This document shows positions 31,426 through 33,262 of a DNA stretch of 35,480 nucleotides, in pieces. The stretch covers positions 8,673-44,152 of the forward strand of contig WVWY01000021.1 in the NCBI GenBank assembly GCA_011773785.1, given 5' to 3'. Source of the stretch: Candidatus Nitrosomaritimum khambatensis (GTDB lineage Archaea > Thermoproteota > Nitrososphaeria > Nitrososphaerales > Nitrosopumilaceae). The position numbers and the translations under genes were made by a program. The notes beneath the pieces were generated by a model, which did not search any database, was not told the origin of the DNA, and saw nothing but the letters and a program-made list of their open reading frames with translations. Every line of letters begins with the position of its first letter. Position 1 is the first letter of the stretch.

Positions 31426-31920
31426 GTGGAGATTTTACCAGAAGTAAAGTTAAGAGTTCGAATTAGTTCAAGTGATGCTCATTATGCAGGAAATTTAGTA
31501 GATGGCGCCCACATAATGCAACTCTTTGGGGATGTTGCCACTGAATTGACTATTCGATATGATGGTGATGAAGGACTTTTACGGGCCTATAATGATGTAG
31601 AATTTTTAGAGCCTGTTCACGGAGGAGATTTTTTAGAGGTGATTGGAAAAATAATTAGCGTAGGTAATACAAGTAGAAAAATAATTTTTGAAGCTTTTAA
31701 AATAATTTCACCAGCAAGCAACCCAGAACATGAATCAGCTTGTGATGTTTTAACGCCTCCAATTTTAGTGGCAAAAGCTGTAGGAACTGCGGTAGTTACA
31801 AAAGATAAACAAAGGAAAAAGCATGAAAACGAAGAGCCGTCTGAAGAGGAGATTTTAGAAGATTTTAAGAAAATAAAAAGTGGAGAAGCTTCAAGAATGG
31901 GACAAAAAAGTTCAAGTTAG
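31426..31920 (+). CDS. Hotdog-fold enzyme of the 3-aminobutyryl-CoA / beta-alanyl-CoA ammonia-lyase family
   Basis: The 164-residue protein matches the small hotdog CoA ammonia lyases (Kal of lysine fermentation, Acl of Clostridium propionicum). The diagnostic run is [20 protein letters not shown], then [29 protein letters not shown] and [12 protein letters not shown]. These enzymes reversibly remove ammonia from 3-aminobutyryl-CoA (giving crotonyl-CoA) or beta-alanyl-CoA (giving acryloyl-CoA). Family members are about 125-145 residues; here an extra Glu/Lys-rich tail of about 30 residues follows the conserved KDKQRK. No other lysine-fermentation genes are nearby. The actual CoA substrate is unknown. 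Start is GTG, with a TATA box at leaderless distance. Confidence 0.78.
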
Positions 31921-31960: not shown

Positions 31961-32131
31961 TTAGGAGCCTACAAATCCTTGAAGTTTTTCAATAACAAGT
32001 TTGTTTTCTTTTTCACTTATTTCTAAAATGTGCCCATCTCGCCAATTAAGATTAACGATGAATTCTTTAGGGATTTCAATTTCATACAATTCATCTTGTT
32101 TTCTTAATCTTGTTGTTTTTACTTGTCCCAT
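31961..32131 (-). CDS. AbrB/MazE-like swapped-hairpin mini-protein (56 aa)
   Basis: The short frame encodes MGQVKTTRLRKQDELYEIEI followed by P-K-E-F and LNWRDGHILEISEKENKLVI. The IPKEF...W-x-x-G-x-x-L-x-I pattern is the AbrB/SpoVT/MazE DNA-binding fold, which dimerises through a swapped hairpin. The usual length for one domain is about 45-55 residues, so the gene is complete. Members are transcription regulators or toxin-antitoxin antitoxins. No toxin gene is adjacent, so a stand-alone regulator is more likely. It is convergent with the hotdog gene, with 40 bp between stops. Confidence 0.75.
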   Translation of the reverse strand: MGQVKTTRLRKQDELYEIEIPKEFIVNLNWRDGHILEISEKENKLVIEKLQGFVGS

Positions 32132-32278
32132 GGTGTTCTATACAACTCATAATATCTAAGATTGATCAAATAACCTCATTATTTTAGTGAGCAATAAGAT
32201 AATGCATTTCATCTTACATGAAAATTTGTTTGATTGAAAAGGAAATTCTAAATGAGTTTTAACTTTGGAAAATAAATC

Positions 32279-32292
32279 ACTATAATATAATA
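32279..32292 (+). promoter_or_regulatory. TATA-rich promoter of the first zinc micro-protein
   Basis: A run of ACTATAATATAATA lies 17-30 bp before the ATG at 32309, at leaderless distance. The second small gene 10 bp downstream of the first has a ribosome binding site and would use the same transcript. Confidence 0.5.
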
Positions 32293-32308: not shown

Positions 32309-32416
32309 ATGGAAATTCCAAAATGTGAATGTCCACCAGGGGCACCTAGTTATGTCAATGAAGACGGTATGATTATTTGTAATTCCTGTGGCGGTTGGAT
32401 AGAGGGCCAATATTAG
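32309..32416 (+). CDS. 35-aa zinc-ribbon micro-protein
   Basis: The frame encodes MEIPKCECPPGAPSYVNEDG followed by MIICNSCGGWIEGQY. The four cysteines C6, C8, C24 and C27 form a compact zinc ribbon with the final CNSCG knuckle. Start is ATG after a TATA-rich region, and the stop is 10 bases before the next micro-gene's ATG. Real coding is supported by the metal-site spacing and by the tandem, Cys-rich neighbour. Partner and target unknown; a peptide this small probably acts as a subunit or adaptor. Confidence 0.65.
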   Translation: MEIPKCECPPGAPSYVNEDGMIICNSCGGWIEGQY

Positions 32417-32426
32417 AGGGAGAAAA

Positions 32427-32561
32427 ATGTCACAAAGTGAATTAGAAATAAGAATTGAAGAGCAAATTTGCCAACAATGCCACATTACAAGACCACACTG
32501 TCATTGTAAATGCCCATATTGTGGAAATCCAGAATGTGTGTGTGAATTTTCAAGAGATTGA
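32427..32561 (+). CDS. 44-aa Cys/His-rich micro-protein
   Basis: Starting at ATG 32427, behind a GAGGGAG ribosome binding site (32415-32421), the frame encodes 44 residues. Eight are cysteine and three histidine: ICQQCHITRPHCHCKCPYCG followed by NPECVCEF. The cysteines (15, 18, 25, 27, 29, 32, 37, 39) could bind two zinc ions or a metal cluster, in metallothionein-like density. The short N-terminal helix (SQSELEIRIEE) may mediate binding to a partner. It is co-transcribed with the 35-aa zinc-ribbon gene. I know no named family. Confidence 0.65.
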   Translation: MSQSELEIRIEEQICQQCHITRPHCHCKCPYCGNPECVCEFSRD

Positions 32562-32628
32562 AAATAATTTCAGTTCTAGGAATTGTTGTGATAACGCTAG
32601 TTCAATCTAGTTATGGAGTAAATAATCA

Positions 32629-32745
32629 TTATCTAATATGTCCATCACCATTTTTCAAATAATTCTGAAATTGGCATTCATTTGAACAATGGGTAAGTAA
32701 AGCATCATCAAGAGGTTTACCACAATTTTGACATTTTAATTCCAT
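32629..32745 (-). CDS. 38-aa zinc-finger micro-protein (DUF2116-like)
   Basis: On the minus strand the frame encodes MELKCQNCGKPLDDALLTHC followed by SNECQFQNYLKNGDGHIR. The pattern C-x2-C-G-K-P ... C-S-x-E-C is that of short archaeal zinc-finger proteins resembling DUF2116. Four cysteines (5, 8, 20, 24) make one zinc site. It faces the other two micro-proteins tail-to-tail, and its promoter region is shared with the receiver-domain gene on the other side. Function unknown. Confidence 0.65.
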   Translation of the reverse strand: MELKCQNCGKPLDDALLTHCSNECQFQNYLKNGDGHIR

Positions 32746-32893: not shown

Positions 32894-33262
32894 ATGAATA
32901 TTCTCCATGTAGATGATTCTCCTGAAATCTGTCAGCTTTATGCAGACATGTTATCTTCTGGAAATAATTCAGTTACAAGCATAAATGATGGAAAAGAAGG
33001 ATTGAAACTTGCTCTAAAAAATACGTATGATCTAATACTTCTTGATGTATGTATGCCAAAATATAGCGGAATGGAGTTTATTCATGATTTAAAGGCAAAA
33101 AGACCTTCCGAGCTGAAAAAAATAATCATAGTTAGTGTTTTGGAGCTAAGAGAAAGTCACAAGAATGAACTTTTGAAGTTAGGTATTCACTCTGTTGAGG
33201 AAAAGCCTTCAACCATTCAAAAGCTTGAAACAATAAAGAAAGATTTGCAATTACGCGAATAA
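32894..33262 (+). CDS. Stand-alone response regulator receiver domain
   Basis: This 122-residue CheY-like protein has D7/D8 in LHVDDSPE for Mg2+, phospho-acceptor D51 in LILLDVCMPKYSGM, S81 in IIIVSVLE and K104 in EEKPSTIQ. All catalytic positions for phosphorylation are present, and there is no output domain. The cognate kinase is not in the window. Archaeal stand-alone receivers may control chemotaxis-like or transcriptional outputs through partner proteins. A winged-helix regulator gene is convergent 36 bases downstream. Confidence 0.92.
   Translation: MNILHVDDSPEICQLYADMLSSGNNSVTSINDGKEGLKLALKNTYDLILLDVCMPKYSGMEFIHDLKAKRPSELKKIIIVSVLELRESHKNELLKLGIHSVEEKPSTIQKLETIKKDLQLRE

Follow-up and report, generated by a model that had tools for sequence, protein, structure and literature searches.

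Tandem genes for two Cys-rich micro-proteins in ammonia-oxidising archaea, with links to ligand-responsive regulators and to an oxidoreductase operon

Short Cys-rich reading frames at the locus

The window (the whole 35,480-nucleotide stretch of DNA analysed here, from Candidatus Nitrosomaritimum khambatensis) contains three short open reading frames rich in Cys and His, of 35, 44 and 38 aa. As a preliminary description of this DNA had reported, two of them lie in tandem with a ribosome binding site in between, and the third faces them. ORF1 (32309..32416, plus strand; MEIPKCECPPGAPSYVNEDGMIICNSCGGWIEGQY), which was characterised by its conservation, invariant residues, dN/dS and an AlphaFold2 model, has four Cys in the single-site arrangement C-x-C-x15-C-x2-C-x2-W. 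It is preceded by a TATA box, TATAATAT (32281..32288, plus strand), 28 nt 5' of its start. A Shine-Dalgarno-like AGGGAG (32417..32422, plus strand), recognised from the sequence and from the coupled geometry of 12 tandem loci, separates it from ORF2 and is spaced 4 nt from the ORF2 ATG. ORF2 (32427..32561, plus strand; MSQSELEIRIEEQICQQCHITRPHCHCKCPYCGNPECVCEFSRD), with eight Cys and three His in the order C-x2-C...HCHC-x-CPYCG...C-x-C, is a paralogue, lacking the TGG tail, of a micro-protein encoded in an oxidoreductase operon. ORF3 (32629..32742, minus strand, read from the ATG at 32742; MELKCQNCGKPLDDALLTHCSNECQFQNYLKNGDGHIR) has four Cys in a treble-clef-like C-x2-CG...HCS-x2-C pattern and belongs to a multicopy family of the genus.

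Both flanking genes of the preliminary description were recovered. The AbrB/MazE-like ORF of 56 aa (31961..32131, minus strand) is divergent from ORF1 and stays below the curated cut-offs (PF04014, 20.0 bits for a cut-off of 24.7; NCBIfam, 17.7 for 28.3). Relatives of it were found near ORF1/ORF2 at 4 of the 21 loci compared (neighbourhoods including L097, L105 and L106), a loose association. The stand-alone receiver domain of 122 aa (32894..33262, plus strand) is a strong match (PF00072, 2.4e-18); its family is present at several loci, so that its proximity says little, and it is probably an incidental neighbour. Positions 31426-31920 (plus strand) encode a 164-aa hot-dog-type protein that exceeds the NCBIfam cut-off for 3-aminobutyryl-CoA ammonia lyase (2.9e-50). 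As to a viral origin, no relatives of the micro-proteins were present in IMG/VR; sequence and fold searches of the PDB gave no significant match, and these families were not found described in our literature searches.

The three ORFs had been described as one cluster. They do not form one conserved unit, since ORF1 and ORF2 recur together and ORF3 does not. The closest relatives of ORF3 are found in the same genus, in several copies per genome and at unrelated loci, and a three-gene cluster was rejected on this ground; at the sister tandem loci (L091, L092), no ORF3 accompanies ORF1 and ORF2. Constraint on ORF3 is weaker than on the other two (dN/dS 0.29, for 10 pairs of mixed paralogues), and its scores are below the cut-offs for the treble-clef families DUF2116 (13.3 of 26.8 bits) and YacG (14.7 of 79 bits). 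Judged by its sequence relatives, ORF3 is a member of a locus-independent, multicopy, treble-clef-like family and an unrelated neighbour of the pair.

The ORFs were compared with the C(P)XCG zinc-finger micro-proteins of haloarchaea, studied in Haloferax volcanii (PMC6562870, PMC10716476, PMC11241148). Like these, all three are archaeal, have four-Cys sites built from paired Cys, lack an enzyme domain and, at 35, 44 and 38 aa, stay under the 70 aa that delimits the family. None has the two C(P)XCG motifs that the family also calls for: ORF1 has CNSCG and a C-x-C, ORF2 a single CPYCG, and ORF3 CQNCG and CSNEC. The motifs are known to tolerate slight variation (PMC11241148): the P or the G may be absent, or one motif may be spaced by three residues. 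ORF3 approaches these variants. ORF1, however, combines one C-x2-CG knuckle with one C-x-C, the C-x2-C/C-x-C pairing appears twice in ORF2, and the two form a coupled pair tied to RAM and CBS proteins; the likeness is one of motif and not a demonstrated sequence relation. Among the haloarchaeal members, some have no zinc or hold a different metal, so that Cys sites of this kind may also be empty, and AlphaFold2 cannot tell these cases apart (PMC11241148).

Conservation of ORF1 and ORF2

When 350 genomes of the class were searched with a profile, ORF1 was found in the Nitrosopumilaceae and nowhere else; clear matches (E<1e-3) were obtained in about 75 of the 200 genomes assigned to that family. 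Across 25 diverse members, Cys6, Cys8, Ile23, Cys24, Cys27 and Trp30 are invariant. The dN/dS ratio is 0.088 (121 close pairs from 54 loci), and substitutions in close pairs at the 54 loci are distributed 116/113/782 over the three codon positions. The ORF2 orthologues of other genera follow the pattern YTDCxxCHNPLPHCHCKCPYCGxRDxCECALFDAATGG, in which none of the eight Cys varies, and the dN/dS of ORF2 lies between 0.107 (11 close pairs) and 0.135 (187 pairs). The window copy has the eight invariant Cys, with C2-C1-C2-C1 spacing, of the ORF2/OFOR-linked family as we define it here (OFOR, 2-oxoacid:ferredoxin oxidoreductase), but neither of the other two traits of that family, a C-terminal TGG and a site upstream of OFOR alpha (see below). 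The preliminary description had proposed to look for stops or frameshifts in relatives and for selective constraint; on both counts ORF1 and ORF2 hold, being conserved in frame and under purifying selection.

The two ORFs are found in tandem in 13 genomes of four genera (g1, g4, g12 and g15). At the 12 tandem loci examined, ORF2 starts between -16 and +11 nt relative to the end of ORF1, a geometry that fits translational coupling, and the pair was therefore taken as one unit. That such short frames could be chance ORFs, or a conserved RNA taken for coding sequence, is suggested by their length; the codon-position pattern, with changes concentrated at third positions, refutes it for ORF1 and ORF2. 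The Cys codons kept across genera and an in-frame fusion of ORF1 to a CBS protein (see below) also speak against it, and we give this explanation a negligible probability. Both ORFs are kept in frame across genera with every Cys invariant, and comparative sequence analysis indicates that they are a genuine pair of real, constrained, co-translated micro-protein genes of ammonia-oxidising archaea. The suggestion that the 44-aa peptide has enough ligands for two metals is borne out in so far as its eight invariant Cys would fit two four-Cys sites.

Most ORF1 loci, the window among them, have a TATA-like box about 27-31 nt 5' of the ATG. Its position near -28 implies a transcript that is probably leaderless, as judged from the promoter sequence. 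A block resembling AAACATCTTTTAAGAT or TAAACATCTTTTAAGATT recurs by eye 5' of the TATA box in several genera, at about -60 to -42 (approximately 32249-32267 in the window). A palindromic operator 5' of ORF1 was also considered and rejected, palindromes being no better than in shuffled sequences (Fisher chi2 45.5, df 52). Within the genus of the window, ORF1 was found in only two, perhaps three, of the nine other genomes searched; this patchiness marks it as accessory and dispensable. Genomes of the Nitrosotalea type have a lone ORF1 at one fixed site, adjoining a putatively Sua5-like gene.

The AlphaFold2 model of ORF1, built from 43 sequences, is a beta-hairpin (pLDDT 83), and Foldseek returned no match to it with E below 3. 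Together with an acidic turn and a C-x2-CG second knuckle, the hairpin recalls the TFIIB/TFB zinc ribbon (PF08271, PF11781), and ORF1 might be a stand-alone ribbon of this type, docked on RNA polymerase to adjust initiation. Ten of the 25 ORF1 members touch Zn_ribbon_RRN7 (best 4e-4) and three touch Zn_Ribbon_TF (best 0.009), and TFB genes occur in some neighbourhoods. These weak matches remain under the Pfam cut-off, however, and the window ORF1 has none. Its first knuckle is C-x-C instead of C-x2-C, no Foldseek match goes below the value given above, and profile-profile comparison with the TFB ribbons of its own genome gave a non-significant probability of 6.8% over 15 columns. A TFB-ribbon origin, hinted at by the Pfam matches, is left unsupported by this comparison, and we regard the polymerase-docking role as very unlikely. 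The structure model of ORF2 was poor (pLDDT 64).

At Nitrosarchaeum-type loci (L107:7274, L136, L149, L176 and L178), a third small Cys4 protein of 52 aa (MNIYDT...RCxxC...PKCGQCxNP) is encoded 3' of ORF1-ORF2, forming a three-gene string.

An ORF2 relative in the OFOR operon

The ORF2 profile also matched a near-universal paralogue, present in 255 of the 350 genomes of the class. This micro-protein, MSSxEEEEFAICVECGNSIEKCVCVCPYCGERDKCECALFDAATGG, is 44-50 aa long and has eight Cys, which together with the final TGG are invariant among 19 diverse members; its dN/dS is 0.03. In the genome of the window, the profile places it at G000:C7:48223-48360 (L221:6221-6361, minus strand in L221). Its gene lies directly upstream, on the same strand, of a gene for a 636-aa alpha subunit (POR_N, POR, PFOR_II) of a 2-oxoacid:ferredoxin oxidoreductase (OFOR), followed by the beta subunit gene. 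A first set of loci, drawn from several families, showed this adjacency in 22 of 23 cases, and a further set that extended to other classes of the phylum showed it in 18 of 20, or 40 of 43 in all (L239-L260 and L289-L308 among them). In one of the three exceptions no OFOR could be detected within 1.5 kb; the other two are f46 genomes. Near-universal in ammonia-oxidising archaea and encoded beside a central carbon enzyme, the micro-protein yet has no family in Pfam or NCBIfam. Genes this short are often missed by gene finders, and neither database has a family for ORF1 or ORF2 either.

Sequence comparison indicates that ORF2 is a duplicate of this ancient eight-Cys micro-protein, and the original role of its lineage was therefore probably to bind OFOR. 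Other genera retain the C-terminal TGG in ORF2. It is absent in the genus of the window (G000, the window genome, G051 and G018), where short unrelated ends replace the ALFDAATGG tail. The window ORF2 is not near OFOR, and the OFOR-adjoining gene is another copy in the same genome. In a gene tree of the superfamily, the OFOR-linked clade and a clade of DFAEYTKC type are separate and the ORF2 of the window genus has no firm placement; its assignment is based on synteny and on the HCHC signature, not on the tree. The DFAEYTKC type is a third eight-Cys paralogue, also without the TGG tail, and is present in the window genome (G000:C27:3483-3572). In G018 it is encoded divergently beside ORF1-ORF2 (L092:6537).

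ORF2 may have kept the job of its parent and serve OFOR, or an enzyme related to it, either as a small subunit with a metal or Fe-S site or as a modulator of activity; ORF1 would then be its companion, a mini-protein of redox type (rubredoxin-like). The position of the parent directly upstream of the alpha gene and its invariant Cys and TGG end favour such a role, as does one locus, L235:5943-7066 of genome G039, where an ORF2-type gene is flanked by a RAM(79) gene and, directly after it, an OFOR beta-like gene, with no alpha gene in this interval. We nevertheless consider it doubtful, since the ORF2 of the window genus has lost the invariant tail and is away from OFOR, the Cys spacings differ from the ferredoxin pattern CxxCxxCxxxCP, and the parent itself does not adjoin OFOR in the f46 genomes.

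The parent resembles the delta subunit of four-subunit OFORs, likewise a small Cys-rich protein of the operon; it differs in being about 45 aa long, in lacking the ferredoxin Cys pattern and in having no Pfam or NCBIfam family. It is possible, if some way from probable, that the parent family is an unrecognised third OFOR component in this archaeal phylum, with two four-Cys metal sites and the invariant TGG C-terminus, and that in the Nitrosopumilaceae it was duplicated and rewired to form, with ORF1 as a new partner micro-protein, a regulatory pair that senses a metabolite. If the parent is a subunit, two-subunit models of OFOR for these archaea would be incomplete.

Ligand-sensing partners and a candidate adaptor role

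At 24 of the approximately 39 loci outside the Nitrosotalea-type site, genes for stand-alone Lrp/AsnC RAM domains (PF01037, 79 and 176 aa) are found no more than 750 bp from ORF1, in several arrangements. Since each genome has 11-22 matches to PF01037, about 2% would be expected by chance; common descent links the neighbourhoods, and the counts are hence not independent. Neither the window nor the Nitrosotalea-type genomes have a RAM gene within 3 kb of ORF1. Where ORF2 occurs without ORF1, the gene for the 79-aa RAM protein often fills the upstream place (L233, L235, L237 and L238), and same-strand pairs of this gene with ORF2 are found in g12, g13 and g22.

Three Nitrosarchaeum/Nitrosopumilus metagenome-assembled genomes encode ORF1 fused to the N-terminus of a protein with a CBS pair (L122, positions 2416-2952; L124; L130), and in two of the three a stand-alone ORF1 is present as well (L136, L178). 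These fusions are reminiscent of the archaeal CBS-zinc-ribbon proteins of Ta0289 type, in which a ligand-binding CBS pair is joined to a small metal ribbon. ORF1 differs in that a gene of its own usually encodes the ribbon, and in its N-terminal position in the fusions.

The preliminary description proposed a small module for metal sensing or for RNA or protein binding. Its observations are confirmed and its interpretation is partly supported. A three-gene metal sensor finds no backing, ORF3 belonging elsewhere and no tie to metal transport or resistance being seen; on the sequence evidence, a protein-binding or regulatory role of ORF1 and ORF2 fits better than metal sensing, given the RAM and CBS partners of the pair and the OFOR partner of ORF2's parent family. 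That the micro-proteins bind zinc reversibly, and so report or buffer the metal, would agree with their many Cys and with the zinc binding common in archaeal micro-proteins with such motifs (PMC11241148). We hold it to be unlikely, since genes for metal transport, metal resistance or metalloregulators are absent from the conserved neighbours of ORF1/ORF2, and since invariant four-Cys sites, with Ile, Gly and Trp conserved as well, resemble structural more than exchange sites.

Our preferred reading, put forward tentatively and at somewhat less than an even chance, is that ORF1 and ORF2 are real coupled genes transcribed together as a single short message that is probably leaderless, that ORF2 was duplicated from the OFOR-operon micro-protein, and that the products are metal-stabilised adaptors of ligand-responsive regulators. 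One four-Cys metal site would organise the beta-hairpin ribbon of ORF1 and two sites the fold of ORF2, zinc being the likeliest metal. A stand-alone RAM protein, with its Lrp/AsnC ligand-binding domain, or a CBS pair would sense a metabolite, and the micro-protein would dock on this sensor or on the sensor's target, so that the signal may be passed on or modulated; the metal, the docking and the regulatory output with its direction are what we infer. The best functional precedent for this adaptor reading is Brz/Brb of Halobacterium salinarum, in which a tiny protein with a zinc finger shares its transcript with another tiny protein and acts in transcription regulation (PMC2253796, PMC3184054). 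The likeness lies in tiny proteins, a two-gene operon and transcription regulation. Brb, unlike ORF1 and ORF2, is a basic protein without this Cys pattern, and the comparison is of function, not homology. Transcription control in these organisms is little known, and the ORF1-ORF2-RAM link provides a concrete set of candidate regulatory partners.

One contig labelled as a Planctomycetaceae bacterium (L174, JAJDEI010000015.1) also has ORF1, together with RAM and Lrp genes of the type found in ammonia-oxidising archaea, and is probably a misbinned archaeal contig.
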